DNA of 63,895 bases from Eggerthellaceae bacterium. Its GTDB lineage: Bacteria > Actinomycetota > Coriobacteriia > Coriobacteriales > Eggerthellaceae. This document shows positions 1,198-55,290 of this stretch, piece after piece. The notes below the pieces were generated by a model, which worked only from the letters and a program-made list of their open reading frames with translations, did no database searches and was not told the origin of the DNA. Each line of letters begins with the position of its first letter. Positions within the stretch are counted from its first letter, which is position 1. The position numbers and the translations under genes were made by a program. The DNA lies in the NCBI GenBank assembly GCA_022792415.1, contig JAAWAY010000003.1:1-63895 (forward strand). The letters are read 5' to 3'.

Positions 1198-3324
1198 CTA
1201 GCGCGCGGCCTGCACGTCGTCGGCGTCAGGCAGCTCGCAGCCCTCGTCCGCGCCCTGCTTCAGGGCGCCCTGGGCCTTGCGCCCGGTCACCCACTGGAAG
1301 GCGCAGATGGCGCCCACCACGACGAATCCCACGATATCCGACAGCGTGCCCGGGATCATCATGCCCAGGCCGCCGGCGATCAGCACCACGCGCAGCACGG
1401 GGTTGACCGTGTGCTTGAGGAAGAACCCGTTGAGCGCGATGGCCACGCCGAACAGGCCCACCAGCGCCGTCACCATGTTGAGGCCCACCGCGAACGGCGT
1501 CACGTCACCCTGCAGCAGCAGCGTGGGGCTCATGGCGAAGATGTAGGGCACGATGAATGCCGCGATGGCCAGCTTGGACGCGTTGACGGCCGTGGCCATG
1601 GGCTTGGCCTTGGCGATGGCCGACGCGGCGTAGGCCGCCAGCGCCACCGGCGGCGTGATGTCGGCCACGATGCCGAAGTAGAACACGAAGAAGTGCGCGC
1701 AGATGGGGTTGATGCCCAGGGCCATCAGGATGGGCGCGCAGGTGGAGGCCATGATGCAGTAGTTGGCCGTCGTGGGCACGCCCATGCCCAGCACGATGCA
1801 GCACAGCATGGTGAACACCAGCCCGATGATGAGGAAGTCGCCCGCCGCCATGACGATGACGTTGATGATGGTGGACGCCAGGCCCGTCACGGTGATGCAG
1901 CCGGCGATGAGGCCCGCCATGGCGCAGGCCACGGCCACCGCGATGACGTTCTTCGAGCCGGCCGCGAAGGCGTCGATGGTGGTGAACACCGCCATCTTGC
2001 ACGTCTCGCCGAGCACCGACGCGAACGTGGCGCCCTCGGCGCGCTCACGCCAGTTGGTCAGCAGGAAGTTGATGAACCCGATGACGAAGGCGCCGGCGAT
2101 GGAGATGGCGGCGGACACGGCCATGGTGCGCGCGCCCGAGGCCACCAGCCACACCAGCAGCACCAGCGGGATGATGAGGTAGCAGTTCTGCAGCAGGTAC
2201 TTGAACGTGGGCAGCTCGTCGCGCGGGATGCCCTTGAGCCCCAGCTTCTTGGCCTCGAGGTGCACCGAGATGAAGATGCCCGCGAAGTACAGAAACGCCG
2301 GGATGATGGCCATGACGGCCACCTCCAGGTACGGGATGCCGATGTACTCGGCCATGAGGAAGGCCGCCGCGCCCATGATGGGGGGCATGATCTGGCCGCC
2401 CGTAGACGAGGCCGCCTCCACGGCGCCGGCGAAGGCGGGCTTGTAGCCGGTCTTCTTCATCATGGGGATGGTGACCGAGCCGGTGGTCACGGTGTTGCCC
2501 ACCGACGAGCCCGACACCATGCCGCACAGCGCCGACGCGATGACGGCCACCTTGGCGGCGCCGCCGCTCGACCAGCCGGCGATGCGGTTGGCCAGCGCGA
2601 TGAAGAAGTTGGCGATGCCGGTGCGCTCCAGAAACGCGCCGAAGATGATGAACAGCACGATGTAGGTGTAGCACACGTTCGTCGGCGTGCCGATGACGCC
2701 GCTGGTGGTGTAGAACAGCTTCTGCACGATCTTGCGTAGCGCGTCGTAGAGCGCCGTGTTGTTGCCCGTGGTGAGCTGCCAGTAGAAGGCGTAGGCCACC
2801 AGGCACGCCACCACCACGATGATGGGGATGCCCACGCAGCGCCGGCACAGCTCCGCCAGCACCAGGATGCCCACGGCGCCCAGCACCACGTGCAGAGGCT
2901 CGATGCGTGCGCCCATGAGCAGGATGTCCGTGCAGTTCATGGCGAAGTACATGAACGCCCCGAAGCCGGCCAGCATGAGCACGACGTCATACCACGGGAT
3001 GTGGTTGACGCGGTGTCCTGTCTTGCGCGAGGGGTACATCAGGTAGCCGATGACCACGATGAACGCCAGGAAGCGCGCCAGGCGCGCCTCGGCCTGCTCG
3101 GTGGACAGCAGCGTCATGGCCATGCAGTACACCGAGAACGCCACGAGCACCACCGTGAAGGCGATCTTGGGGACGCCCTCCCACAGGCGGGTGTTGGACT
3201 CGCGGTCGTACTTGCGCATGACCTCCTCGGCATCGATCTCCGCCGCGTCGGGCGAGGCGGCCAGAAGCTCGGCCTCCTCCTTGTCCAGCTCCTTGGCCTT
3301 CTTCTTGATCTTGGGGAATGCCAT
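1198..3324 (-). CDS. TRAP transporter fused DctQM permease (TAXI type)
   Basis: 708-aa polytopic membrane protein. It fuses the small 4-helix DctQ-like part (roughly residues 45-200) to the large DctM-like translocation part, seen in the glycine/serine-rich signatures SGSSVGNTVTTGSVTIPMM and MGVPTTANYCIMAS. Fused permeases of this kind work with TAXI-type solute-binding proteins, and such a gene lies immediately upstream on the same strand, so the two form an operon. The transporter uses an ion gradient to import an organic anion; the substrate cannot be read from the sequence. The ATG at 3324 is preferred over a GTG at 3330 because AGGAGG sits at the correct distance. The 265-bp gap to the upstream binding-protein gene contains an imperfect stem near 3412-3455 that may adjust the relative expression of the two. 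Confidence 0.92.
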   Translation of the reverse strand: MAFPKIKKKAKELDKEEAELLAASPDAAEIDAEEVMRKYDRESNTRLWEGVPKIAFTVVLVAFSVYCMAMTLLSTEQAEARLARFLAFIVVIGYLMYPSRKTGHRVNHIPWYDVVLMLAGFGAFMYFAMNCTDILLMGARIEPLHVVLGAVGILVLAELCRRCVGIPIIVVVACLVAYAFYWQLTTGNNTALYDALRKIVQKLFYTTSGVIGTPTNVCYTYIVLFIIFGAFLERTGIANFFIALANRIAGWSSGGAAKVAVIASALCGMVSGSSVGNTVTTGSVTIPMMKKTGYKPAFAGAVEAASSTGGQIMPPIMGAAAFLMAEYIGIPYLEVAVMAIIPAFLYFAGIFISVHLEAKKLGLKGIPRDELPTFKYLLQNCYLIIPLVLLVWLVASGARTMAVSAAISIAGAFVIGFINFLLTNWRERAEGATFASVLGETCKMAVFTTIDAFAAGSKNVIAVAVACAMAGLIAGCITVTGLASTIINVIVMAAGDFLIIGLVFTMLCCIVLGMGVPTTANYCIMASTCAPILMALGINPICAHFFVFYFGIVADITPPVALAAYAASAIAKAKPMATAVNASKLAIAAFIVPYIFAMSPTLLLQGDVTPFAVGLNMVTALVGLFGVAIALNGFFLKHTVNPVLRVVLIAGGLGMMIPGTLSDIVGFVVVGAICAFQWVTGRKAQGALKQGADEGCELPDADDVQAAR

Positions 3325-3589
3325 GGGCACCTCCTGACTCTCACGCGCCAGCTGCCCCCGGCTGGCGACCCTGCGGTGCTGCGCGCCTCACGTCGGGCGC
3401 GATCCCTTCCCTTGCCCAAGGGATTTGAGGTGAAATCGCTTGGGCGAAGGAAGCGGGCGGGCGGCGGAAAGATGCGGGCAGGGGCCGCGCCCATGATGCA
3501 GGCGCGACCCCTGGTCAAAGCGGTGTCGGAGTGCGGGGCGACGGGAGCGCGGCTCCTCGGTCGGCCCTCGCCTTCCGTGGGAGCGGCGG

Positions 3590-4600
3590 CTACTTGCCGA
3601 CGGTGACGTCCTGCTCCTCGTAGTACTTGGCGGCGCCCGGGTGGTACGGCACCGACGTGATGCCGGCGGCGTCCTCGATCACGAGCTCCTTGTACTTCGC
3701 ATGGGCGTCGGCGTTGTTGTCAGCGCCCTCGAAGATGGACTTGGTGAAGTTGTAGATGGCATCCTCGGACACCGAGTTGTTGGCGATGATGACGGCGCCC
3801 ACGGACACGGTGGTCGTCGGGCCCTCCAGGCCGTAGGTGTCAGCCGGGATGACGGCCTTGCTGTAGTACGGCGAGATGGCCATCAGCTCATCGACGTGCG
3901 CGTCGTCCATCGAGACCAGGTAGGCGGTCTTGGTGGTGGACAGGTCGGTGATGGCGGTGGTGGGGGCGCCGGCCACGATGAAGGCGGCGTCGATCTTGTT
4001 GTCCTTCAGGGAGTCAGCCGAGTCGGCGAAGCTCTGGTAGACGGGGTTGATGTCGTCGAGCGTCAGGTCGTACACGCCCAGCACGTCGAGCGCGTTGAAG
4101 TACACGCCCGAGCCCGCGGCGCCGACGGACACGGTCTTGCCGGCCAGGTCAGCCACGGTCTTGATGGAGGGGTCGCACGTCACGATCTGCACCTGCTCCT
4201 GGTACAGGTCGGCCACGATGGAGAAGTCCTCGTAGGGCGTGCCCTCGAACAGGTTGGTGCCGTCGTAGGCGTAGGCCAGCACGTCGGACTGGCAGAACGC
4301 GATGTCGGCGTCGTCATCCTCGAGCGCCTGGATGTTGGCCTGCGAGCCGTTGCCGGACAGCGCCGACACGTTCAGGCCGTAGTCGCCGTTGGTGGCGTAC
4401 TGGCCGAGCACGTTGCCGTAGGCGTAGTAGGTGCCGGACTCGCCGCCCGTGACGAAGCGCAGGTTCTCGGTCGTGGCCTTGGAGCCGGCGTCCGAGCCGC
4501 CCTTGTCGCCGGAGCTCGCGTTGCCGCCGCCGCAACCGAACAGGCCGAGCGCCAGCAGCGCGGCGCAGGCCGCAGCCGCTACGATCTTGGTCTTCTTCAT
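3590..4600 (-). CDS. TAXI-family TRAP solute-binding lipoprotein
   Basis: 336-aa extracytoplasmic binding protein. The N-terminus MKKTKIVAAAACAALLALG leads to the lipobox LFGC, with the lipid-anchored Cys at residue 23, then a Gly/Ser-rich linker. The mature part starts LRFVTGGESGTYYAYGNVLG, the signature of the TAXI (TRAP-associated extracytoplasmic immunogenic) family. Together with the downstream fused permease it forms a complete TRAP importer. The start at ATG 4600 is chosen over ATG 4612 because GGAGGG precedes it. A divergent LysR gene at 4927 shares the upstream region and is the natural candidate regulator. The ligand is not known. Confidence 0.93.
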   Translation of the reverse strand: MKKTKIVAAAACAALLALGLFGCGGGNASSGDKGGSDAGSKATTENLRFVTGGESGTYYAYGNVLGQYATNGDYGLNVSALSGNGSQANIQALEDDDADIAFCQSDVLAYAYDGTNLFEGTPYEDFSIVADLYQEQVQIVTCDPSIKTVADLAGKTVSVGAAGSGVYFNALDVLGVYDLTLDDINPVYQSFADSADSLKDNKIDAAFIVAGAPTTAITDLSTTKTAYLVSMDDAHVDELMAISPYYSKAVIPADTYGLEGPTTTVSVGAVIIANNSVSEDAIYNFTKSIFEGADNNADAHAKYKELVIEDAAGITSVPYHPGAAKYYEEQDVTVGK

Positions 4601-6000: not shown

Positions 6001-7950
6001 ATGCCCTGCTCAGCAGCCAGCACCACCGCCCACGCCCGTTCCCGCAGAAGCCTCCCGCTCGGCCTCGCCGCCCTCGGCGCCGCCCTGGCCGCCGCCGCGC
6101 TGGCCCTCTGCCTCGCCGGGGCCGCGGGCGCCAGCCCCGCCGACGGATCCGCCGCCGACGCGCAGGCAGGCGCCGCCCCCGTTGCCGCCGACGACGCCGC
6201 GGCGGCCGCGTCGCCCGTCGCCTCCATCGGGTCCGCCACCTACGCGACGCTGCCCGAGGCGCTCAAGGCAGCCAAGCCGGGCGACACCGTCACGCTGCTG
6301 GCCGACCAGGACCTGACCGGCGCCGGCACGCTGGACATGCCCGGCGTCACGCTGGACCTAGACGGTCACACCATATCCGCCAAGAACTTCACGCTCATCT
6401 TCCAGGGCAGCGGCGGCACCATCAGAAACGGGTCGTTCAACGCCGACGGCGGCGCCTACGGCCTGTTCGTGGGCGACAGCACCGTCACGGACGGGTTCAC
6501 GCTGGAGAACCTGGACATCACCGGCGGCGTCAACATCTTCAACTCCGGCAACGTCGTGCTGCGCGACGTGCGCGCCGACGCCGCGGCCAGCAACTCCCCC
6601 TACTACGCCGTGTGGTGCGACGTGAACGCCCAGGCCGTCATCGAGAGCGGCACCTACAGATCCAACGGCGCCGCCGTGCTGGGGCTCACCGACAACAGCT
6701 CGGGTGCGCCGGCCAGCACGATGGAGGTGCGCGGCGGCAGCTTCAACACCGAGAAGTCGCCGCTCGTGCTGGGCGGCGACAACCGCTACATGCCCACCAT
6801 CAGCGGCGGCGACTTCTTCAGCGACGCGCAGGCGGCGCCCTACGTGGCCGACGGCTACTGCGTGGTGCCCGACGGCGCGGGGCGCTACGTGGTGTCCGCC
6901 GAGCTGACGGGTGTGGCCCCGCAGGACGTCGCCACGCTCCCCGCGGAGTACGAGCTGGTGGCCACCACGGTCACCGCCCCCGAGCAGGCCGGCATCGACG
7001 ACGCGCTGGCCCAGGGGTCGGTGGCGGCCGCGCTCCACACCGACGAGTCCGGCACGCATCTGTGGACGGCCAACGTCATCCTGCGCGACAAGCACACGCT
7101 GGCGCGCGACCACACCAGCACGGCCTCGTTCGTGCTGCCCTACCCCGACGGCATCACCGCCGACACCTACGGCGACTACGAGTTCACCGTGCTGCACCTG
7201 CAGACCACCGAGAAGGACGGCGTCGAGTCCTACGACCCTGAGATCCTGGCCGCGTCCGCCGTGTCCGCGCAGCCCGATGGGCTGCACATCACGTCCACCC
7301 TGAGCCCGTTCGCCATCAGCTACCGCGCCAAGGCCACCCAGCCCGACACGCCGACGACGCCGGACACGCCGGACACGCCCACGACGCCCGATACTCCCAC
7401 GACGCCGGACACCCCGGCCCAGCCCGACACGCCCGACACGCCGGGCGGCCAGCCGGGCACGACGCCGGGCGGCACGTCGGGCTCGACCGGCTCCACGTCG
7501 GGCGGCACCGGCTCCACCACGACGACGGGTGCGGGAAGCGGCGCCACCACGCACGCCGGCACCACCGCCGGATCGCGCGGCTGGCACAGCACGTCGTCCT
7601 CATCGCACAGCGGAAAGACGGGCTACCAGGGCTCGCTCGCGTGGCCCTCTACCGCGCCCGCGGCCGGCGGCATCTCCCTCGACGGCCTGGCGGGCTACGG
7701 CATCGACGGCACCGCCGCGACGCCCGTCAGCCCCGACCTGGCACCCTTCTTCATCCGCACCGGCGGCATGGCGATGGCCGAGGCGCCCCTCATGGCGGCT
7801 CACCTGCAGCCCGTCGGCAGCGTCACCGTCCCCGGCCCCGACGACGCGGGCGACTGGACGGCACTCGTGCTGGGCGTGGCGGCCACGGCGCTCCTGCTGG
7901 CGGGGGCCTTCGTCCTCACCCGTCGCAACATCCGCTCCCACCGGGCCTGA
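6001..7950 (+). CDS. Secreted/surface beta-helix protein with Pro-Thr stalk and C-terminal membrane anchor
   Basis: 649 aa. A signal peptide (arginine-rich n-region, then hydrophobic LAALGAALAAAALALCLAG) is followed by a region with repeated asymmetric strands (TLPEALKAAKPGDTVTLLADQDL, VTLDLDGHTI, IRNGSFNADGGAYGLFVGDS) typical of right-handed beta-helix/pectin-lyase-like folds. A T-P-D repeat region (about residues 448-485) and a Ser/Thr/Gly-rich stalk lead to a final transmembrane helix (LVLGVAATALLLAGAFVL) and a short basic tail. There is no LPxTG motif, so anchoring would be by the helix. An adhesin or glycan-binding role is inferred. The gene overlaps the 3' end of the convergent Fic gene by about 35 bases. 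GAGGAG precedes the ATG. Confidence 0.75.
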   Translation: MPCSAASTTAHARSRRSLPLGLAALGAALAAAALALCLAGAAGASPADGSAADAQAGAAPVAADDAAAAASPVASIGSATYATLPEALKAAKPGDTVTLLADQDLTGAGTLDMPGVTLDLDGHTISAKNFTLIFQGSGGTIRNGSFNADGGAYGLFVGDSTVTDGFTLENLDITGGVNIFNSGNVVLRDVRADAAASNSPYYAVWCDVNAQAVIESGTYRSNGAAVLGLTDNSSGAPASTMEVRGGSFNTEKSPLVLGGDNRYMPTISGGDFFSDAQAAPYVADGYCVVPDGAGRYVVSAELTGVAPQDVATLPAEYELVATTVTAPEQAGIDDALAQGSVAAALHTDESGTHLWTANVILRDKHTLARDHTSTASFVLPYPDGITADTYGDYEFTVLHLQTTEKDGVESYDPEILAASAVSAQPDGLHITSTLSPFAISYRAKATQPDTPTTPDTPDTPTTPDTPTTPDTPAQPDTPDTPGGQPGTTPGGTSGSTGSTSGGTGSTTTTGAGSGATTHAGTTAGSRGWHSTSSSSHSGKTGYQGSLAWPSTAPAAGGISLDGLAGYGIDGTAATPVSPDLAPFFIRTGGMAMAEAPLMAAHLQPVGSVTVPGPDDAGDWTALVLGVAATALLLAGAFVLTRRNIRSHRA

Positions 7951-8889: not shown

Positions 8890-9849
8890 CTAGTCGGCGG
8901 TGATGAGGGTGCCCGTCTGGCCGCGCAGGCCCTCGGCGGCGTGACCGAGCGACGTAATGAGCGCCTTGCCGCCCGGGTGCGCCTCGACGAACTTCACGCA
9001 CGCCTCCACCTTGGGCATCATGCTGCCGGGCGCGAACTGGCCCTGGGCCAGGTACGTGCGCGCCTCGGCCGCCGTCATGGCGTCGATGGCCTTCTGGTCG
9101 GGCTGGTTGAAGTTGAGGTACACCTTCTCCACCGCCGTCAGGATGATGAGCATGTCGGCGTGCATGCGCCAGGCCAGGATGGAGCTGACGAGGTCCTTGT
9201 CGACGATGGCGTCGACGGCCTGGTACTGGCCGTCCTTCATGACGACGGGGATGCCGCCCCCGCCGGCGGCCACGGTGACGCAGCCGTCGTCCACCATGTC
9301 GCGGATGACCTCCAGCTCGACGATGTCCTGCGGCACGGGGCTGGGCACCACGCGGCGCCATCCGCGCCCGGAGTCCTCGCGCACCTGACAGCCCGTGGCC
9401 TTGGCGAACGCCTTGGCCTCGGCCTCGTCCATGAAGGCGCCGATGGGCTTCTCGTAGTCCTTGAACGCGGGGTCGTCCGCGTCGACGGTGACGTGGGTGG
9501 GCACGTCGGCCACCGAGCGCATGATGCCCTGCGCGCGGAACTCGTTCATGAGCGCCACCACCAGCTGGGCGCCGATGTAGCCCTGGCTCATGGCGTTGCA
9601 ATCGACGAGTGGCATGAAGGGCACCTGGGCCTTCGGGTCCTTGGAGGCCACGGTGAACGCCTCGTCGATGATGCCCACCTGCGGGCCGTTGCCGTGCGTG
9701 ACGACGACGTTGATGCCCTCCTTGACCATGGCGGCCAGGTTCTTGGACGCCTCCTGCAGCAGCTTGAGCTGCTGGTCGGGCGTATCGCCCAGCGCGTTGC
9801 CGCCCAACGCGATGACCACGCGCTTGCCCTCGAGGTTCTCCTGCATCAT
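8890..9849 (-). CDS. arcC: Carbamate kinase
   Basis: 319-aa enzyme of the amino-acid kinase family that transfers phosphate from carbamoyl phosphate to ADP, giving ATP, ammonia and CO2 in the cytoplasm. Signatures: VVIALGGNALG at the N-terminus, VVVTHGNGPQVG, and CVTVAAGGGGIPVV in the middle. The length fits the family. In Coriobacteriia this enzyme usually serves arginine, agmatine or allantoin/purine fermentation, but no deiminase or transcarbamylase gene is adjacent, so it is a stand-alone copy here. ATG 9849 follows AAAGGA; a second ATG lies directly after it. Confidence 0.95.
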   Translation of the reverse strand: MMQENLEGKRVVIALGGNALGDTPDQQLKLLQEASKNLAAMVKEGINVVVTHGNGPQVGIIDEAFTVASKDPKAQVPFMPLVDCNAMSQGYIGAQLVVALMNEFRAQGIMRSVADVPTHVTVDADDPAFKDYEKPIGAFMDEAEAKAFAKATGCQVREDSGRGWRRVVPSPVPQDIVELEVIRDMVDDGCVTVAAGGGGIPVVMKDGQYQAVDAIVDKDLVSSILAWRMHADMLIILTAVEKVYLNFNQPDQKAIDAMTAAEARTYLAQGQFAPGSMMPKVEACVKFVEAHPGGKALITSLGHAAEGLRGQTGTLITAD

Positions 9850-42131: not shown

Positions 42132-42938
42132 CTATAGCGCGGAATAGAAACCCGCACTCCCCATGCGCACGCAATTTTGGTACACACTTTGATCTTCATC
42201 ATCTATCGTTAAATCGCGAATATCCAGAACGGAGCTTTCAAATCGCTGCAATAAAAGGTACAAATGGCTATTTAGCTGCGTAGGCGATTCGATATTCGAG
42301 ATGTCAATTTCTCCCGACATCAGTTTTGGGAGCAATGCATCTCGTATCTCCCCTAGATTCCGGGCTTGGATTTTAAGGCCAATCATTTCATCAACTATTG
42401 GCTGCATGGTTTCAGTCAGCCTAGCTAGCGTGTCTTCAGGCGGAACTAGCACTTCGGATTCTTGAAGCGCACTACGTTTTATATGCCCCATCGTGGTGGC
42501 TCGATCTTTAGCCAGTGCGATGAAACGTCGCAGGTGGTGTTTAGTCCACATATAGTAAAACCACGATGGGTAGTTCTCTGACGTGACCTTGAACAAATGC
42601 TGGTTAAGGCCAGCATCTCCGCCAGCCCAAAATTCGAGAAGAAGCGTTCCTGACCAGGAGAAGACGAGATCGCCGTCGCGAATTGTGACGCTTACGTCTA
42701 TATCACTTCGACACCTTTCGGCATCCGTGCCGCAATATCCTTGTCCAAGCTCTCGAATCTTTAAGACAGGCAACCCCTCATCGGGGCTTTCGGGTCTGAA
42801 CTTCTGCATCGCCAGTCCATTTTTATAACTAGCAATATCAAGTAAAGAAACGCGCTTCCAATCATCATTTGTCTCGTTAAGTATTTGCCTGAATTGCACA
42901 TCGAGCAGATCGGCTAAATAGCCATTTGCACGTCTCAT
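42132..42938 (-). CDS. hsdS: Half-size HsdS (C-terminal target-recognition cassette)
   Basis: 268-aa single-TRD specificity fragment. It starts MRRANGYLADLLDVQF, that is, at the central NGYL linker of an HsdS, then has one target-recognition domain (WKRVSLLDIASYKNGLAM to SEVLVPPEDTLARLTE) and the conserved end ALLPKLMSGEIDISNIESPTQLNSHL followed by about 35 extra residues. Recombination sites lie at both junctions (42913-42928 and 42260-42293). ATG 42938 overlaps the stop of the 218-aa gene (ATGA), so it may be translated as a half subunit as well as serving as a silent cassette. Confidence 0.85.
   Translation of the reverse strand: MRRANGYLADLLDVQFRQILNETNDDWKRVSLLDIASYKNGLAMQKFRPESPDEGLPVLKIRELGQGYCGTDAERCRSDIDVSVTIRDGDLVFSWSGTLLLEFWAGGDAGLNQHLFKVTSENYPSWFYYMWTKHHLRRFIALAKDRATTMGHIKRSALQESEVLVPPEDTLARLTETMQPIVDEMIGLKIQARNLGEIRDALLPKLMSGEIDISNIESPTQLNSHLYLLLQRFESSVLDIRDLTIDDEDQSVYQNCVRMGSAGFYSAL
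42260..42293 (+). repeat. hsdS recombination site A
   Basis: A 34-base block containing CAAATGGCTATTTAGC and GTAGGCGATTCGAT, identical to site C at 47263-47296 in the same orientation. It encodes the QLNSHL end of the half hsdS on the minus strand; on the plus strand it would encode NGYLAA and a stop. Confidence 0.85.
42913..42928 (-). repeat. hsdS recombination site B
   Basis: GCTAAATAGCCATTTG, the inverted form of the core of site A, located at the NGYL-coding start of the half hsdS. Inversion between B and C would reverse about 4.35 kb including the recombinase gene. Confidence 0.8.
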
Positions 42939-43591
42939 TCCATATTGCGAAAGTCCAGGATGGGATGATAAAAGATGTCATTGCGAAGCGTTTCATCTTC
43001 GTTCATGTTCGGACAATCCTCGAGGAAACGTTCGGCACCTTTCGTCATCGACTTAAAGAACTTGTGAATATTGAGATCAAGGCGATATACGGCCTCTCCT
43101 TTCTCTTCGCATACATCCTTGAATTCGCCAGACTCATTGAAGCTAGCGAATATAGTACTTGGCGTCGTCTTCCCGATGTGATCGCAAGTATCCGGTTCTT
43201 TGAAGATACGGAACTGTATGGTAGCGAAAGGAGTGCGGCCCCTTTCTACGTGCGGTGCGTTTGCCGCCTCGTGCAGGTAGACGCAGCGCAGCTGATAACA
43301 GTCGGCCCCCGTGAAGTATGCCGCCCTAGGCTCCGATCCATTGGCCGCCGCCCAGAATTTCTCCCTCTTTGGTAGCTCAACATAATCCCACCGGGCCACG
43401 TACTCGTCGAACCACATTGCGTAACGCTCGGCCGATTTCTTCTTGAGTTCGGGATAGAGCCTCAGTCCGCAGGCGTCAGGAATAGTCAGGGCCAACGAAA
43501 GCGCGGAAATGTACGCCTCTGCTTTTGCGGCGCGCTTCATGTCGGCAATTCTCCCTCGAATCGAACTGTCAATCTCCTTTGGGAAGACCAT
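42935..43591 (-). CDS. Hypothetical protein coupled to half hsdS, 218 aa
   Basis: Soluble protein (RIADMKRAAKAEAYISALSLALTIPDACGL; WAAANGSEPRAAYFTGADC; FKEPDTCDHIGK). The segment LRCVYLHEA contains RCVYLH, an Rx4H pattern like that of HEPN ribonucleases, but the surrounding fold cannot be judged. TAGGAGGCACG before ATG 43591. Its TGA overlaps the ATG of the half hsdS, so it belongs to the switch locus. Function unknown; it lies between the recombinase and the cassette. Confidence 0.7.
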   Translation of the reverse strand: MVFPKEIDSSIRGRIADMKRAAKAEAYISALSLALTIPDACGLRLYPELKKKSAERYAMWFDEYVARWDYVELPKREKFWAAANGSEPRAAYFTGADCYQLRCVYLHEAANAPHVERGRTPFATIQFRIFKEPDTCDHIGKTTPSTIFASFNESGEFKDVCEEKGEAVYRLDLNIHKFFKSMTKGAERFLEDCPNMNEDETLRNDIFYHPILDFRNME

Positions 43592-43662
43592 CGTGCCTCC
43601 TAACCCGTACTTTCTCGTGTTTCATTGTGCCCTACCTAGACTTTTGCGGACAAGGAGGGCAC

Positions 43663-44634
43663 ATGGATCAATCAACGATAGACACCATCCTGGTGGCCAT
43701 GCAGCAGGTGCTCAGCGCGCTGCAGCTCAAGAAGCTGAAATCGGTGCTGACGGATACGCTGGCGACACAGGCTGCACAGCCCGGAGAAAACGAGAGCAGA
43801 GAGCTTCTCGTAGCCTTTCTCAATGCAAAAGAGCTGGAAGGCTGCACGGAACGAACGCTCAAATACTACGAGACAACACTCGCGCACTTCGTCAATGCCG
43901 TGGATATGCCCCTCACGCAGGTGGGCACCGAGACCCTGCGCTCTTATCTCATGAGCTACCAGGAAGAGCACGGCGTCGGCAAGGTCACGGCCGACAACAT
44001 TCGACGCATCCTATCCAGTTTCTTCTCATGGCTCGAGGATGAGGACTATATCGTGAAGAGCCCTGCCCGCAAGATACGCCACATCAAGGCGCCAGTACGG
44101 GTGAAGGGAACCATAAGCGACGAGGATATGGAACGCCTACGTGACGGGTGCGAGAACGTCCGTGACCTCGCGATTATCGACCTTTTGGCGTCGACCGGCA
44201 TGCGCGTTGGCGAGCTCGTTAGGCTCGATCGGACAAGCGTGGATCTGGCTGAGCGGGAGTGCATCGTTCTAGGCAAGGGCAACAAGGAGCGCAAGGCCTA
44301 CTTCGACGCCCGCGCAAAGCTTCACCTCGAGGAATACCTGGACGGCCGACAGGACAATAACCCAGCTCTGTTCGTAGGCCTCGCGAGCTCGCACGAACGG
44401 CTAACCGTTGGGGCCGTGGAGAACCGCTTGCGCTCGCTCGGGCGCAAGCTCGAGCTTCCCCGCATCCACCCGCACAAGTTCCGCCGGACCATGGCCACCA
44501 ACGCCATAAACCGGGGTATGCCGATAGAGCAGGTGCAGAAGCTGTTGGGCCACGTTAAAATAGACACCACAATGGAATACGCGTTGGTTAGTCAAAGCAA
44601 CGTCAAGGCCTCCCACAGAAAGTATTTAGGATGA
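43663..44634 (+). CDS. Tyrosine recombinase (probable hsdS invertase)
   Basis: 323 aa. N-terminal SAM-like core-binding domain (about 45-135) and a catalytic domain with the full set: Arg in STGMRVGEL, Lys in the beta hairpin GKGNKERKAYF, HPHKFRR (H-x-x-R), LLGHVKIDTTMEYA (His and the Tyr nucleophile). It has the size of XerC/D-like invertases. It lies between the hsdS cassettes and is 16 bases from the DUF262 gene on the same strand. CAAGGAGGG precedes ATG 43663. It should catalyse exchange at the four NGYL sites. Confidence 0.9.
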   Translation: MDQSTIDTILVAMQQVLSALQLKKLKSVLTDTLATQAAQPGENESRELLVAFLNAKELEGCTERTLKYYETTLAHFVNAVDMPLTQVGTETLRSYLMSYQEEHGVGKVTADNIRRILSSFFSWLEDEDYIVKSPARKIRHIKAPVRVKGTISDEDMERLRDGCENVRDLAIIDLLASTGMRVGELVRLDRTSVDLAERECIVLGKGNKERKAYFDARAKLHLEEYLDGRQDNNPALFVGLASSHERLTVGAVENRLRSLGRKLELPRIHPHKFRRTMATNAINRGMPIEQVQKLLGHVKIDTTMEYALVSQSNVKASHRKYLG

Positions 44635-44650
44635 CAGGTAGGTCCCCGGA

Positions 44651-46720
44651 ATGCAGGTAAACAAGAACAACGTCACGCAGTTTATGACGGCGACCAACAT
44701 GTGCTTTATGGTCCCCGTCTATCAGCGCAACTACGACTGGGGCGAGGACAACTGCAAGCAGCTCTGGGTCGACCTTCGCTACCTCGCGTTTGACGAGACC
44801 ACGAAGACCCATTTCCTCGGCACTATCTGCTCTAAAACCGCCAACAGCCGCGAGAAGTCGATCATTGACGGCCAACAGAGGCTTACCACCCTCTCCCTGC
44901 TCATCAAGGCCATGCACGACCGCGTGGATAACGAGGACTTCAAGCGCAATCTCGACGAGCGTTTCCTGCGCAACGCCGACTTTGGCGTGTCTCCCGGCCA
45001 CGTCGTGAAGCTCCACCTCAACCGCCGCGACGACGCCATCTATAACAAGCTCCTCGCGAGGAAGACCTTTGAGGGCTCAAACGGACTCACGGCAGACGAA
45101 GCATCCTCAAGCGTCTACTTGAACTACCTCTACTTCTACGAGCGCATGAGCGAGCTCACGGACGAGCAGATGCTCGCCGTGCGCGACGCCCTCGACCGCA
45201 TGGTCATTGTCGACCTCGACGTGGAATCCGAGAACCCACAGGAAATCTTCGAAAGCTTGAACTCGACAGGACTCGATCTCACCGACGTTGATCTCCTCCG
45301 TAACTATCTGCTCATGAGCCTCGACCACGAGACTCAAACACGGCTCTACGAGGACTACTGGTTTCGCATCGAACAGAACGTCGGTCCCGCCAATATGGTC
45401 CGATTCTTCGTAGACTACCTCATCTACGTGAAGCGTTCCGACGCCATCACACTGCGTGGTCGCAGGGCGCACATCAACGAGCGCAACCTCTACGTAGCCT
45501 TCAAAGACTACTACGGCGGCCTCTCGGAAGAGGGGGGCAAGTACCTTGCCTCTAGAGAGGCCACCGAGCAGGTGCTCAAGAGCATGTACGCCTGCTCTGA
45601 AGTTTACAGGCGACTTGTGTTCCCCGAAGACGCCGACATGAACGCCATGGGAGCAATGGACCGGACCATCTTCTCGACCGTCTATCTCAACCAGGCGGCC
45701 GGCTCTCGCCCCGTGTTGCTTTACGTCATGGACGGCTACCTGAACCGAGGTCTCACGCAGGACGATGCCCTCGCCATGCTCGAGGCGTGTCTCTCGTTCG
45801 TCGTGCGCTCGCGTGTGGTAGGCACATCGGGCATCAATGGGCAGTTTGCGGGCAACATGCTGCAGCGTCTTCCCGAGGCGGATGTCCCTGATTGCTGTGC
45901 CGCCTTCTGGCGGGCTATCACCTCAGGTAAGGGCAAGTACGCCTTTCCCACGGACGATGAGTTCAGGGAGGCTCTGCTGAGTCGCAACATCTTCGAGGTG
46001 CTGCGTTCGAAGGGTACGAAGTACTTGCTCTACGCCCTTGAACAGGGGGCCAAGTCAGCCAAAGGACTACCCGGGTGGGATAACGCGTTCATCTCAATCG
46101 AGCACATCATGCCCCAAACCCTCTCGCCTGAGTGGGAGGACTACCTCGGCGAGGACGTGGAGTATCACGAAGACTATCTGAATAAGCTCGGTAATCTCGC
46201 ACTCACGAGCAATAATTCTGAAATGTCGAATCGTCCATTCTCGGCCGCGAAGGCGACCGATAAGCGCGGATGGTATGCCGAATCCAGCTTTTACTATACG
46301 CGCAGGGTAGCCGACTTAGACAACTGGTCATGCGAGCGCATTCGTGAGCGCGGAGAACATCTTGCAGACAGGTGTCTCGAAACCTGGACGCTGCCCGCCA
46401 AATACCAGCCGGAACCGGAGGCTGAGCGCAAGGGAAAGCGCCGTCCGCCGTTCAGGTTCTCAATGATCGGGCTTACCGAAGGCGACGAGGTGGTTTTGGC
46501 CAAGGATCCGAGTAAGGTCGCCGTCGTGGCGGACGAGTGGCACGTGACCTATGAGGGCAAGAACTACTCTCTCACGCGACTCGCGCAAAACCTGCTCGGC
46601 AAGGAGCACGGCATTGCTGGGCCCTGGCATTTTGCCTACAATGGCAAGCTCTTGGGCGAACTGCGCAACGAGGCTGAGTCCAGCCGGTACCAGAGCGATC
46701 AACAGGAGAATGACGACTGA
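44651..46720 (+). CDS. DUF262/HNH/RAMA modification-dependent nuclease (GmrSD-like)
   Basis: 689 aa. The N-terminal ParB-like DUF262 has the signature VPVYQRNYDWGEDNCKQLW and IDGQQRLTTLSLL. An HNH/DUF1524 nuclease follows: IEHIMPQTLSPEW and NLALTSNNSEMSNRPF near residues 478-530. The C-terminal part (about 600-670; VAVVADEWHVTYEGKNYSL, GPWHFAYNGKLLGELR) matches a RAMA domain, proposed to recognise methylated adenine. The probable role is restriction of DNA with foreign modification. Its TGA overlaps the ATG of the plus-strand half hsdS. Confidence 0.87.
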   Translation: MQVNKNNVTQFMTATNMCFMVPVYQRNYDWGEDNCKQLWVDLRYLAFDETTKTHFLGTICSKTANSREKSIIDGQQRLTTLSLLIKAMHDRVDNEDFKRNLDERFLRNADFGVSPGHVVKLHLNRRDDAIYNKLLARKTFEGSNGLTADEASSSVYLNYLYFYERMSELTDEQMLAVRDALDRMVIVDLDVESENPQEIFESLNSTGLDLTDVDLLRNYLLMSLDHETQTRLYEDYWFRIEQNVGPANMVRFFVDYLIYVKRSDAITLRGRRAHINERNLYVAFKDYYGGLSEEGGKYLASREATEQVLKSMYACSEVYRRLVFPEDADMNAMGAMDRTIFSTVYLNQAAGSRPVLLYVMDGYLNRGLTQDDALAMLEACLSFVVRSRVVGTSGINGQFAGNMLQRLPEADVPDCCAAFWRAITSGKGKYAFPTDDEFREALLSRNIFEVLRSKGTKYLLYALEQGAKSAKGLPGWDNAFISIEHIMPQTLSPEWEDYLGEDVEYHEDYLNKLGNLALTSNNSEMSNRPFSAAKATDKRGWYAESSFYYTRRVADLDNWSCERIRERGEHLADRCLETWTLPAKYQPEPEAERKGKRRPPFRFSMIGLTEGDEVVLAKDPSKVAVVADEWHVTYEGKNYSLTRLAQNLLGKEHGIAGPWHFAYNGKLLGELRNEAESSRYQSDQQENDD

Positions 46721-47286
46721 TGCAACTCGGTGACCTTTGCTCGTTCTCACGCGGAGCCAGCACGCCCCGTGCCCGCATGCACAACGAAGGCGACTATCTT
46801 TACATCCACTATGGAGATCTCTACAAAGGCTTCGATATTTCCATAGACGTGGAGGCTCCGCAGAAGCCAATTCCTTACATTTTGAAGTCCGAGAAGATCC
46901 GCGATTCACAATGGCTCAAGAATCAGGACATCGTTTATGTGCTCACCTCTGAGACCATAAACGACCTCGGACACGCTTTTCTCTTCAATAATCCAAAGGA
47001 CCTTCCAGCTGTAGCCGGAACCGAGACAACCATCATGCGTGTCGAACGCAGAGACGTCCTTCTCCCTGCCTATCTGAACTACATGATGCAGACGGCCCAC
47101 TTTAAGGCGTTGCTGCGACAGTACGTCAAAGGCATGAAGGTGTTTCGCGTGCACCCCGATGACCTCGCGAAAATTGAAGTCGATTTGCCTGATCTCGAAA
47201 CACAAAAGAGAATTGTCGCTTTCGTTGATGTAATCCGCAAACAGGAGCTTCTGCTCAATCGAACAAATGGCTATTTAGCTGCGTAG
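46720..47286 (+). CDS. hsdS: Half-size HsdS (N-terminal target-recognition domain), plus strand
   Basis: 188 aa with one TRD (LGDLCSFSRGASTPRARM to VHPDDLAKIEVDLPDLETQ) and the linker helix ending RKQELLLNRTNGYLAA. It stops in site C, exactly where a full HsdS continues as NGYLEELLLEKY. Inversion of 47263-47948 would join it in frame to the second TRD now read by the minus-strand gene. It starts inside the stop of the DUF262 gene (TGATG). Its last 32 bases overlap the 3' end of the full hsdS on the other strand. Confidence 0.85.
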   Translation: MQLGDLCSFSRGASTPRARMHNEGDYLYIHYGDLYKGFDISIDVEAPQKPIPYILKSEKIRDSQWLKNQDIVYVLTSETINDLGHAFLFNNPKDLPAVAGTETTIMRVERRDVLLPAYLNYMMQTAHFKALLRQYVKGMKVFRVHPDDLAKIEVDLPDLETQKRIVAFVDVIRKQELLLNRTNGYLAA

Positions 47287-48421
47287 GCGATTCGATGCTG
47301 GAGAGGTCGATTTCGCCAGACAGGAGCTTAGGGAGCAATGTGTCTCGTAGAACCGCGAGATACCTGTTCTCCCGCTCAAGGGCATGTTGTTGAGCAAGAA
47401 GCGGATTTGCCCAAGCTGAAAACTTGAGACAAGCCTCTTCAGTTGGGATATTTAATGTGATCCCTTTCATGGTCGAGCTAGAAACTTCAGGGAAAGTTGT
47501 GCCTGATCCAGCGCCAGCAATACGGTCTTTATTCATGGTTAAGAAACAATACACGAATGCGGTGCCCACTTCGGCTTTAGGAATAACGGATTTAAAGCCT
47601 TGATTGGTTGCGAGGGGCCTCTGTGCGATAGCGATATAACCAATAGGAGCACGGGAGCTGAACAGTATGCTTCCGGCTGGCAAGAGTTTGGTGCTGCAAG
47701 AATCGAATCCTAGTTGGGTTATATCATCTGCACCATGAGAAACGAACTTATCAGTTGTGTTTGATAAATCTCGTGGCGTTATCCATCCAATTCCTTCTTG
47801 GGTATAGAATTCAGGCCTTTTCTTGGATGGGGTTGCCCCTCCCGCCACTTCACCAATATCCGCAATCGTTCCGGTGCCGCTGGTTGCGCTGGTTTCACTG
47901 AAAATCTCAGTGTACTTTTCGAGCAACAGTTCCTCTAAATAGCCATTTATCTGAGCGTTAAGAGCAATCTTATATCGAATAGGATTAAGAATTTCGGCTA
48001 TCATGAATTGCTCTTTCGATGACGCGTCACGTATTGCGAACTTCATAATGGCGTCCTTATCGCCACGCGGCATCTTTGTACCCTTGGACGTCCTTGTTAC
48101 ATAGTCGAAGAATGAGTCATCGGAAAGAAGCCAATATAGGTAATCAGAACTGCAATTCTCGGGACTGAGAACCAAGACATCAGGAGAGCAAGCTCCGTCT
48201 TGTGTTGCCTGCCATATTTTTTTGAAATATGGACGAATGTTTGATATCAATGCATCGCCTTTGCGATAAAGGTGAACCTTGCCTGATGGCGGGATGCTTT
48301 CGGCTTTCCTTACGCCGGCTTTGTTTGGGAGCATTGATTCTGTTGAGACAAATGTTTCCAAGTCTACGTTCTTTGCATCAACAGACTCATTTCTGAATGA
48401 GCAGACACTTCCTAGTCTCAC
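47255..48421 (-). CDS. hsdS: Full-length HsdS specificity subunit, type I R-M
   Basis: 388 aa with two target-recognition domains: residues about 1-150 (LGSVCSFRNESVDAKNVDL...) and about 180-340 (GTIADIGEVAGGATPSKK, GWITPRDLSNTTDKFV, SGTTFPEVSSSTMKGI). A central linker (QINGYLEELLLEKYTEIF) and the end RYLAVLRDTLLPKLLSGEIDLSSIE are the conserved HsdS helices. It recognises a bipartite DNA site and directs HsdM and HsdR. GTG 48421 overlaps the stop of a recombinase remnant (GTGA). It is the currently complete allele of the switch, downstream of hsdM on the same strand. Confidence 0.9.
   Translation of the reverse strand: MRLGSVCSFRNESVDAKNVDLETFVSTESMLPNKAGVRKAESIPPSGKVHLYRKGDALISNIRPYFKKIWQATQDGACSPDVLVLSPENCSSDYLYWLLSDDSFFDYVTRTSKGTKMPRGDKDAIMKFAIRDASSKEQFMIAEILNPIRYKIALNAQINGYLEELLLEKYTEIFSETSATSGTGTIADIGEVAGGATPSKKRPEFYTQEGIGWITPRDLSNTTDKFVSHGADDITQLGFDSCSTKLLPAGSILFSSRAPIGYIAIAQRPLATNQGFKSVIPKAEVGTAFVYCFLTMNKDRIAGAGSGTTFPEVSSSTMKGITLNIPTEEACLKFSAWANPLLAQQHALERENRYLAVLRDTLLPKLLSGEIDLSSIESPTQLNSHLFD
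47263..47296 (+). repeat. hsdS recombination site C
   Basis: The same 34-base block as site A (42260-42293). Plus strand: end of the half hsdS (NGYLAA stop). Minus strand: end of the full hsdS (SPTQLNSHL). The double-coding explains why the block is conserved at base level. Confidence 0.85.
47935..47948 (-). repeat. hsdS recombination site D
   Basis: CTAAATAGCCATTT, inverted to the core of sites A and C, at the central NGYL codons of the full hsdS. C and D bound a 0.7-kb TRD-coding segment. Confidence 0.8.
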
Positions 48422-48605
48422 TTTATATACCTTCTACGAGAACCATTAACGTTTTGGTTGACCAATGCGTAATGTATCGCTGCTTTTATTTTCGTATAGC
48501 CAAGAAGTTCTTGAATCTGCTTAATCGGCATTCCTCTATCAATAACACAGACTGCGGGTGTTTGGCGCAGATTGTAAGGGTGGGTATCGTAACTTGTTTC
48601 GCTGG
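48420..48605 (-). pseudogene. C-terminal remnant of a second tyrosine recombinase
   Basis: A minus-strand frame ending at stop 48420 reads HPYNLRQTPAVCVIDRG, then MPIKQIQELLGYTKIKAAIHYALV and NQNVNGSRRRYIK, in parallel with HPHKFRR..., MPIEQVQKLLGHVKIDTTMEYALV and SHRKYLG of the intact recombinase at 43663. It retains the HxxxR region and the Tyr but the upstream domains are gone and the LLGH His is changed to Tyr. Its TGA overlaps the GTG start of hsdS. The stretch 48606-48667 up to hsdM shows nothing else. Confidence 0.7.
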
Positions 48606-48667
48606 AGGGATTGTGCTCACGCAGGTAATGACGGCGCTAGACACATGATGGATAAATGGACAGACGT

Positions 48668-50173
48668 CTATACCCCATACCCAATTGCCTCCAAGTTCTT
48701 CTTGATCTGTTCTTGCAACCGATTGGATTCCTCGAAGCATTTTGAAAGCTCACATGTCAGGCGCGCCATCTTCTCCTCGAAGGGCTCGCCGTCGTCCTCC
48801 TCTGGTTTGATGCCGACGTATCTGCCTGGCGTGAGAACGAAGCCCTGTTTCTCGATTTCCTCGAGTGTCGCCGCCTTACAGAATCCGGGCTGGTCTTCCA
48901 GCTCGCCATTACGGAACGCCTCGAAAGCGTCTGCTATCTTCGCAATGTCATCATCGGTCAGCTCACGCAGCCTACGGGAAACCATGGCTCCCATCTCGCG
49001 AGCGTCAACGAAGAGTGTCTCGCCAGGCTGCTTCTTGTCCTTGTTGACGATCCAGAGGCAGACAGGAATCGGCGTACTGTAGAAGAGCTTGTCCGGCATG
49101 GCAATAATGCCTTCCACCAGATCGGCCTCGACAATCTCCCGACGGATTTCTCCCTCCCCGCTCGATTGGGACGATAGAGATCCATTGGCAAGAACCATAC
49201 CCATGCGGCCATGTGAGTTCAAGTGCCAGATCATGTGCTGCATCCAGGCGAAGTTGGCATTTCCCTCCGGGGGAATGCCGTACTTCCATCTCTTGTCATC
49301 TTGCAGCTTGTCGCCGCCCCAGTCGTTCATGTTGAACGGCGGGTTAGCGAGGATGTAATCGAACTTCTCGTTCTCGTGCCTGTCGTCGAAGAACGTGTCC
49401 GCGTACGTACTGAGATCGGCCTCTATGTGGCGGATGCCGAGGTTCATCTTGGCGAGCTTCCAAGTATTGGGGTTACTCTCCTGGCCAAACACGGTGATGT
49501 TGTCACGGATGTTTCCTCCGTGCCTCTCGACGAAGGCCCCTGACTGCACGAACATGCCGCCGCTTCCACAGCATGGGTCGTATACGCGCCCCTTGAAGGG
49601 TTGGATTATCTCAACGAGGGTTCGGACGATGCAGGAGGGAGTGTAGAATTCCCCGGCGTTCTTGCCCTCGAGCGATGCGAATTGAGAGAGACAATACTCG
49701 TAAGCGCGTCCGAGCAAGTCTTTTCCCTCGGCGTGCTCGGTCATGTCAATGTTTGTAAAGAGGTCGACCACCTCGCCTAGCCTGCGCTTGTCAAGCTCGG
49801 GACGAGCGAAGTTCTTAGGCAACACATCCTCCAGAGCCTCGTTCTCGCGCTCGATAGCTCGCATAGCCGCATCAATGGCGAGGCCGATCTCCGGAGTGTG
49901 CGCCGAACCGGAGACCTTCTCCCAGCGTGCTTCCTCGGGAACATAGAAGACGTTTTCCTCAACGTAGAAGTCGCGATCTTCCTCGAAACCCTCGCCTTCG
50001 TCGACAAGCTCCTGATAACGCTCGTTAAAGCTGTCGGAGAGATACTTGAGGAAGATTAGGCCAAGCACAACGTTCTTATAGTCGGCCGCGTCCAGATTTC
50101 CGCGCAGCACGTCTGCGGCGCTCCAAATGCGCTCCTCGAATCCCACGTCAGCGGTATTTCTCTTTTTTACCAT
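48668..50173 (-). CDS. hsdM: HsdM N6-adenine methyltransferase, type I R-M
   Basis: 501 aa. N-terminal HsdM helical domain (ERIWSAADVLRGNLDAADYKNVVLGLIFLKYLSD), SAM-binding motif I DPCCGSGGMF, and catalytic motif IV NPPFNMNDWGG for adenine N6 methylation. The C-terminal coiled helix (MARLTCELSKCFEESNRLQEQI) contacts HsdS. It lies 15 bases after hsdR, in one operon. Full length with no damaged motif. Confidence 0.95.
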   Translation of the reverse strand: MVKKRNTADVGFEERIWSAADVLRGNLDAADYKNVVLGLIFLKYLSDSFNERYQELVDEGEGFEEDRDFYVEENVFYVPEEARWEKVSGSAHTPEIGLAIDAAMRAIERENEALEDVLPKNFARPELDKRRLGEVVDLFTNIDMTEHAEGKDLLGRAYEYCLSQFASLEGKNAGEFYTPSCIVRTLVEIIQPFKGRVYDPCCGSGGMFVQSGAFVERHGGNIRDNITVFGQESNPNTWKLAKMNLGIRHIEADLSTYADTFFDDRHENEKFDYILANPPFNMNDWGGDKLQDDKRWKYGIPPEGNANFAWMQHMIWHLNSHGRMGMVLANGSLSSQSSGEGEIRREIVEADLVEGIIAMPDKLFYSTPIPVCLWIVNKDKKQPGETLFVDAREMGAMVSRRLRELTDDDIAKIADAFEAFRNGELEDQPGFCKAATLEEIEKQGFVLTPGRYVGIKPEEDDGEPFEEKMARLTCELSKCFEESNRLQEQIKKNLEAIGYGV

Positions 50174-50188
50174 CCGTTCCGATCCTTC

Positions 50189-53284
<3,096 letters not shown>

Positions 53285-53844: not shown

Positions 53845-55290
53845 CTATGGCCTAACAGCATACTGTTTTCGAGACCGATAAATACTATTCCACCGATATC
53901 TAGAATCTTTAAAACATGCAACAATATCAGCGATATCTTGTCCAAGATTCATGGCGATGGCACCGTATGTTAGAAGCTGAACCGCCTCCATATGACAATA
54001 CAGCTCCTTATTCGACAGGCTCTCACCTTTAATCAAAGACCTTCTGTGCGTGTAAGCATTTCGGTGAACCCTATGGTCATTTAGAAACCGCTCCGTATCA
54101 GGTGTTACGTAAATAGCAAAATCGCCGAGTCTTCCCACCAAGTCCTCCGCTAAACGACTTGCAGGCTTCCATTTCGCATGCTTCAGCTTATAGCACGCCC
54201 AGTGTTTTATGCGCGAGCTAAGTTCAGACTCCTTAATTGCCCTCAGTCGGTCTTCAAGCTTCTCGTCGCTTATTTCACACTCGTCAACTCGCGAACGTGA
54301 AGCCGCCTCAAATGCCTGAGCCGAAGCAAGGAACAGCATGTCTAAAGGCATGCTCCATTTGGTCATAAGTGACGTCAATAGAGCTGCACTGTTTCGCAAA
54401 TAGTCGTCAAATTCGAGCCAACTCTGAATCATGCTGCCGATCTTTTCGCTAATCCTTGAATATGTAAAGGGCATTGATTGGAGCTGCAACGAAGTAGGAA
54501 CGCCTGGTGCCCCAACGAAAGGTGCATAGTAATCGGCTTTGATCCCATCAATAGTTTCAATACTCAATGCTTTAATTGGGTATTTAAATCCCATGCAAAA
54601 CGCTAGAAAGCCTACGATACGATGCGCCCACGTTTCCATCGCATAATTAAATTCGAATCCATCCCCTTTAAACGATATTGTCATTTCGCAGTCGGTTTCA
54701 AAATAAAAGGAGAGGGTGGGGATGGGGCCGCCTTTGCGTATGCTGAGTAAATTGATATCTATTTTGATGTTATCGCTCTCAAATAAAGTAATCGGATCGG
54801 CATCTTCCGCATCATAGCTGAATGAAATATTTGAAGAGCGATTCTCATTGTATCTCACTGAGATTTTAAAAGGGATTGTTCCTAGCCACTCTCGTAAACC
54901 AGGCACCCTAATCTTCATTGACCGCACGACTGGGTTGGGAATCAATGCCTCTCGAGAAACAAAAAGCGACATCCCTCGCAATGTCTGACGCTCCATTCCG
55001 GGACACGACATTCCTGGACCCGGCGTCGATACGTCTCTTAGTAAGTAATAGTCCCCTCTTTGAGAAAATCCGTAAACCTGATCTACCTGAAGTCCCTCCG
55101 CTGTATGGGATTGCACATATCCGCCACCTTCTATGGGAATTTTCGGCCAATCAAGCAAAACCCCTGCGGGTATCTCAAGTTCAAGAGGCTGGTCCCCCTC
55201 AAAAGTCAGAATCCCTAATGTTTCATTTGGGTCTTCAGTTACATCGGAACTAAGCGACCAAATTGCAGCAGCAAATTCTCTTTTATCCAT
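53845..55290 (-). CDS. ApeA-like HEPN anti-phage protein
   Basis: 481 aa, in visibly AT-richer DNA. The N-terminal half is beta-rich (ETLGILTFEGDQPLELEIPAG, then ISVRYNENRSSNISFSYD), like the ApeA N-terminal domain; the C-terminal half is helical and carries HRNAYTHRR (about residue 420), which contains the Rx4H (RNAYTH) active-site motif of HEPN ribonucleases. ApeA proteins abort phage infection by cutting RNA. Sequence identity to known ApeA cannot be measured here. It stands alone on the minus strand between hsdR and guaA. A weak AGAAG precedes the ATG. Confidence 0.7.
   Translation of the reverse strand: MDKREFAAAIWSLSSDVTEDPNETLGILTFEGDQPLELEIPAGVLLDWPKIPIEGGGYVQSHTAEGLQVDQVYGFSQRGDYYLLRDVSTPGPGMSCPGMERQTLRGMSLFVSREALIPNPVVRSMKIRVPGLREWLGTIPFKISVRYNENRSSNISFSYDAEDADPITLFESDNIKIDINLLSIRKGGPIPTLSFYFETDCEMTISFKGDGFEFNYAMETWAHRIVGFLAFCMGFKYPIKALSIETIDGIKADYYAPFVGAPGVPTSLQLQSMPFTYSRISEKIGSMIQSWLEFDDYLRNSAALLTSLMTKWSMPLDMLFLASAQAFEAASRSRVDECEISDEKLEDRLRAIKESELSSRIKHWACYKLKHAKWKPASRLAEDLVGRLGDFAIYVTPDTERFLNDHRVHRNAYTHRRSLIKGESLSNKELYCHMEAVQLLTYGAIAMNLGQDIADIVACFKDSRYRWNSIYRSRKQYAVRP

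Follow-up and report, generated by a model that had tools for sequence, protein, structure and literature searches.

Known hsdS inversion systems and the locus examined

Phase variation by hsdS inversion is well established in type I restriction-modification (R-M) systems (PMC4190663; PMC4948785; PMC7394358) and invertons have been the subject of surveys (PMC5903667; PMC11892184). The locus described here lies in a stretch of 63,895 nucleotides from an Eggerthellaceae bacterium (GenBank assembly GCA_022792415.1, contig JAAWAY010000003.1, positions 1 to 63,895 of the forward strand), hereafter the window, and its sequence makes it very probable that it is a phase-variable hsdS switch driven by the tyrosine recombinase of the locus at four sites, A to D. 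In design it is a phase-variable type I R-M locus of the PsrA/CreX type, a known type with a modest new twist, namely a GmrSD-type gene and an open reading frame, ORF218, in the invertible segment, a slot that in relatives houses other defence-like genes and a recombinase relic fused upstream of hsdS. Full-text search brought up no paper on such a design in Eggerthella, coverage of the literature being incomplete.

The SpnD39III/Spn556II (cod/ivr) locus of Streptococcus pneumoniae resembles it in having a tyrosine recombinase, PsrA/CreX, within the type I locus, a complete hsdS beside hsdM together with silent hsdS copies, and a 15-bp inverted repeat (IR1) that swaps the 3′ half of hsdS (PMC4190663; PMC4948785). 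Knockout and complementation of psrA demonstrated that the recombinase of this homologous design performs the IR1 inversion (PMC4948785). The pneumococcal locus differs in using three classes of inverted repeat (15, 85 and 298 bp) with excision also reported, whereas the window contains four copies of a single 14-bp site. Unlike in pneumococcus, the additional N-terminal (N2) and C-terminal (C2) hsdS halves of the window are split either side of the recombinase, with the GmrSD-type gene and ORF218 as cargo inside.

In the four-way system of Streptococcus suis two 5′ and two 3′ target recognition domains (TRDs) likewise give four specificities (PMC7394358), and the S. suis locus compared here (L111) encodes a recombinase 56% identical to that of the window and has four sites in the layout + - X + + -. 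The two differ in the centre of the site (CATC in S. suis, GGCT in the window), in the slot, which has no cargo in S. suis, and in the placing of the sites, which in the window lie between the TRDs and at the 3′ end. The nearest recombinases (74-77% identity) are those of Bifidobacterium cebidarum, B. scaligerum, B. aerophilum and B. tissieri (L043-L046), whose loci share the four-site layout with the cassette in different slots; no description of these loci was found in the literature. They differ from the window in their cores, AAACGGCCATTT or AAATGGCTATTTGC, and in the cargo of the slot (see below).

Genes of the locus

The hsdR, hsdM and hsdS genes form one operon-like cluster on the minus strand (47255-53284; Pfam and PADLOC), identifying a type I R-M system, and the locus comprises the following genes.

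50189-53284, minus strand: hsdR, with HSDR_N, SWI2_SNF2 and T1RH-like_C (Pfam) and REase_I at 8.4e-284 (PADLOC)
48668-50173, minus strand: hsdM, with N6_Mtase at 3.4e-104 and HsdM_N at 5.7e-27 (Pfam)
47255-48421, minus strand: complete hsdS (N1-C1), 388 aa, GTG start, downstream of hsdM; Methylase_S at 1.9e-26 (Pfam), Specificity_I (PADLOC)
46720-47286, plus strand: N2 half hsdS, 188 aa, Methylase_S at 5.2e-9; completed in silico by C-D or B-C inversion
44651-46720, plus strand: GmrSD/DUF262-DUF1524 type IV-like restriction gene between the recombinase and N2; GmrSD_N at 5.7e-32, GmrSD_C at 3.1e-23
43660-44634, plus strand: tyrosine recombinase of the hsdS-inversion family, 324 aa; Phage_integrase at 2.8e-32, XerA-type at 226 bits, family placed by tree
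42935-43591, minus strand: ORF218, between C2 and the recombinase, with an aligned homologue in locus L057
42132-42938, minus strand: C2 half hsdS cassette, 268-aa open reading frame, silent store; Methylase_S at 7.6e-6, Specificity_I at 7.8e-51

An initial annotation of this DNA had proposed two N-terminal and two C-terminal TRDs with a recombinase in between, and both points were borne out by Pfam and PADLOC. The two N and two C units carry differing TRDs, C1 and C2 sharing about 45% DNA identity, which is background level. The catalytic residues of the recombinase (R, HxxR, H and Y) were all found by inspection. The stop of the GmrSD-type gene overlaps the start of N2 and that of ORF218 overlaps the start of C2. 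Such coupling of both half-gene starts to upstream genes would fit a use of N2 and C2 as half HsdS proteins, pairing into separate single-TRD specificities with inversion only secondary, and truncated HsdS can dimerise in some type I enzymes. This is nonetheless very improbable, the sites, in-frame completions and alternative states of relatives (see below) already accounting for the half genes.

Recombination sites

The core AAATGGCTATTTAG, of 14 bp, is present in four exact copies, two in each orientation (A+, B-, C+, D-).

42262-42275, plus: site A, exact match at the 3′ end of cassette C2; relatives show like geometry
42914-42927, minus: site B, exact match at the 5′ end of cassette C2, encoding NGYL
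47265-47278, plus: site C, exact match, marking the 3′ end of cassette C1 as well as the junction end of N2
47935-47948, minus: site D, exact match at the N1/C1 junction of the complete hsdS, encoding NGYL

No further exact copy was found elsewhere in the 2.39-Mb metagenome-assembled genome (MAG), which is 77% complete. By chance 0.04 copies would be expected with two mismatches or fewer, and four copies were reached in 0 of 100 shuffles. Read as AAT GGC TAT TTA G the core encodes N-G-Y-L at the inner HsdS junction (sites B and D), while its opposite strand encodes the L-N-S-H-L that closes each C-terminal cassette (sites A and C). The core positions given in the initial annotation (42263, 42913, 47266 and 47935) were right to within one base, three of the four being off by one, and its two sites per orientation agreed with the exact-match search. 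Its placing of every core at an HsdS domain junction was imprecise: B and D separate the N-terminal and C-terminal TRDs, and A and C lie at cassette 3′ ends with C doubling as the N2 junction end; the outer side of site A has no HsdS half.

Sites A and C lie inside a 102-bp stretch of 81% identity that corresponds to the conserved HsdS C-terminus, as might be expected had the repeats arisen by homologous recombination or gene conversion between conserved HsdS regions rather than by site-specific inversion. Against this, B, D and the A/C pair have only 14-16 exact bases in common, too short for ordinary homologous exchange, a short site with locus-specific centres recurs beside the recombinase across many phyla, and cassette exchange between species stops at the sites (see below), making such an origin extremely improbable.

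Predicted inversion outcomes

Under the site-specific inversion proposed here, the recombinase of the locus would act at the four near-palindromic sites, inverting the DNA between oppositely oriented copies and so moving the C1 and C2 cassettes between an N1 half fixed behind hsdR-hsdM and an N2 half behind the recombinase and GmrSD-type genes. The outcome would be N1C1 (the present state), N2C1, N2C2 or N1C2, two full genes together or none, and the specificity of methylation and restriction would change or be switched off accordingly. The analysis shows the genes and sites, the in-frame joins, a conserved design and alternative states among relatives; from these we infer action of the recombinase on the four sites within the organism itself, switching at some rate and a change in the motifs methylated.

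Enumeration of all inversions between oppositely oriented sites gave 16 states, with four full-length HsdS proteins (N1C1, N2C1, N2C2 and N1C2) and all joins in frame; two states carry two genes together, whose N and C units differ, and two carry none (OFF). The assembled state encodes N1C1 (388 aa). Inversion between C and D gives N2C1 (413 aa) with N1 truncated, so that the plus-strand half gene is completed as the initial annotation foresaw. Its single-step cassette swaps by B-C and A-D inversion were wrong: B-C inversion keeps N1C1, as a 534-aa read-through form, and adds a second complete gene, N2C2 (446 aa), while A-D inversion alone leaves no full hsdS and is therefore an OFF switch. 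N1C2 is reached by A-B followed by A-D inversion, as a 528-aa read-through, and is 382 aa in other states. Since the enumeration gives four full-length products, the earlier proposal of a recombinational switch with up to four specificities stands, and it is well supported by the in silico joins and by relatives in alternative states. Deletion of the segment between the direct repeats A/C or B/D would also be possible in principle.

The recombinase family and alternative states in relatives

Of 132 fetched loci bearing a recombinase of this family 123 also carry hsdS. In a tree of 127 sequences the window recombinase falls within a 22-row actinobacterial clade (99*), beside the four Bifidobacterium sequences. 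None of three genomes of the window's own genus had a recombinase match at E <= 1e-40. The order C2, recombinase, N2, C1-N1, hsdM, hsdR is common to the clade loci, with the full hsdS gene on the hsdM side in 10, on the recombinase side in eight, only shorter hsdS pieces in three and one cut by a contig end.

The sites fit the form (T)AAAY-NNNN-ATTTRG, with near-palindromic arms around a 4-bp centre. When the form AAAY-NNNN-RTTTRG was scanned in both orientations, a both-orientation pair, in the layout + - X + -, was found in 59 of 128 loci compared with one of 640 shuffled control regions, the shuffles keeping base composition only. At least three copies of the site were present in 41 loci, with 12 different centres, each common within its own locus. 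A locus-specific shared centre would be expected of a tyrosine recombinase that requires matching overlap regions.

Comparison of loci, which lends the switch strong support, points to exchange at the sites. Over all 634 bases the left cassette of B. cebidarum (L044) shares 84.5% identity with the right cassette of B. scaligerum (L045). Both resemble the right cassette of B. tissieri (L046) at about 60%, there in reverse orientation, whereas other cassette pairs are at background identity (39-50%); the ends of the BLAST matches between these cassettes fall at the sites. Among wider relatives, the loci of two MAGs (L105 and L119) share 98.8-99.7% identity across about 10 kb, with the recombinase-bearing middle inverted relative to the hsdM/hsdR flanks and breakpoints at the outer sites, CTAAATGATTGTTTA. 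In another Eggerthellaceae locus (L129) the two C cassettes (6850-7529 and 8979-9658) share 99.85% identity, which looks like the overwriting of one copy by the other, and a sister locus in the same genome (L131) holds the same cassette inverted. In locus L130 the recombinase and an hsdS half are tandemly duplicated (41-1737 and 2323-4019; 99.0% over 1.7 kb) with five sites; this was not used as a trapped isomer, as it may be a duplication or an assembly effect.

A recombinase relic and the state of the proposed switch

Between hsdM and hsdS lies a remnant of a second recombinase.

48424-48585, minus strand: relic of a second recombinase C-terminus, 52% identity to recombinase residues 269-323

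Its translation reads THPYNLRQTPAV...LLGYTKIKAAIHYALV...RRRYIK*, with tyrosine replacing the histidines of HxxR and LLGH, and its TGA overlaps the GTG start of N1. Because the relic stop overlaps the N1 start, just as in relatives the recombinase gene adjoins N2, N1 probably derives from a different recombinase-hsdS unit.

The cutting down of this second recombinase to a fragment would also suit a frozen or decaying former switch that no longer inverts, with N2 and C2 as pseudogene halves, and so would the one clean assembly across all sites and the presence of N2 and C2 as half genes. However, the locus retains an intact 324-aa recombinase, the four cores are identical without drift despite the 65% GC of the window and the rarity of TTA (11 of 355 Leu codons in seven genes checked), and half genes are expected in one-state assemblies and seen in most relatives. 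We consider a frozen switch improbable.

A number of observations weigh against an active switch with the full set of outcomes. For pneumococcal PsrA, the activity initially demonstrated covered just one type of inversion out of three (PMC4948785). Inversion was seen between relatives (L105/L119, Bifidobacterium and the clade states) and not within the species of the window, and neither of the window's cassettes has a close homologue placed in another slot. As the contig was assembled through all four sites, one state may dominate. In addition, some predicted products have long non-HsdS C-terminal tails (N2C2 of 446 aa and the read-through forms of 528-534 aa).

Cargo between the recombinase and the N2 half

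The GmrSD-type gene and ORF218 lie inside the invertible segment, and neither was mentioned in the initial annotation. The former contains IIDGQQRLTTL (DGQQR motif) and IEHIMPQTL (His-Me motif), placing it in the GmrSD type IV family. Genes of the DUF262-DUF1524 type embedded in type I loci are already known as RloF in Campylobacter and TgvAB in Vibrio cholerae (PMC4619093; PMC11411939). These differ in lying between hsdR, hsdS or hsdM of fixed loci, whereas the window gene is in an invertible segment and coupled to N2; a literature search combining hsdS, DUF262 and inversion found no GmrSD-type gene so placed. GmrSD-type genes of 687-689 aa, the length of the window's copy, also occur just downstream of hsdR in five loci bearing this recombinase (L054, L077, L082, L103 and L119).

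The recombinase gene directly abuts the N2 half in 13 of the 22 clade loci, therefore the GmrSD-type gene of the window would sit in an otherwise closed junction. In relatives the slot between recombinase and N2 holds an AbiD-like gene (L043), DUF7724 and DUF4160 genes (L044), an unknown 283-aa gene (L125), a YhcG/DUF1016 nuclease (L078), an AAA_14-DUF4143 gene (L053) or, in a locus of different overall layout, a Fic gene (L076), with no recognised cargo gene in L045 and L046. An insertion between recombinase and hsdS in L142 was rejected as cargo, being a UPF0236 transposase. The predicted B-C inversion would take the recombinase, GmrSD-type gene and N2 from convergent to co-directional with hsdR-hsdM-hsdS. 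It is conceivable, if unlikely, that the segment is a general defence cargo slot and that the switch makes a second defence system phase-variable along with the methylome, because inversion would bring a cargo that is antisense to hsdR-hsdM-hsdS transcription into the same direction. A promoter and terminator scan gave no more matches than in shuffles.

ORF218 belongs to an uncharacterised family in genomes of the class Coriobacteriia, with a 43% identical homologue in the same slot in Tractidigestivibacter montrealensis (L057). The motif LRxxxxH is invariant in 17 aligned rows and may be HEPN-like, this being unproven; ORF218 had no Pfam match, and its structure model (pLDDT 62, low confidence) had no significant fold match. 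An ApeA-like HEPN gene (ApeA_NTD1, HEPN_Apea; 53845-55290) adjoins hsdR, which suggests a small defence island.

Implications

The locus adds an Eggerthellaceae gut bacterium to those in which hsdS shuffling is predicted to vary the methylome and, if the prediction is true, one strain can change the DNA motif that it methylates and cuts. With the site rule of conserved arms and a locus-specific centre, such switches could be detected by scanning sequences, and the cargo slot suggests, as an idea open to test, that further defence genes can be switched along with the methylome.
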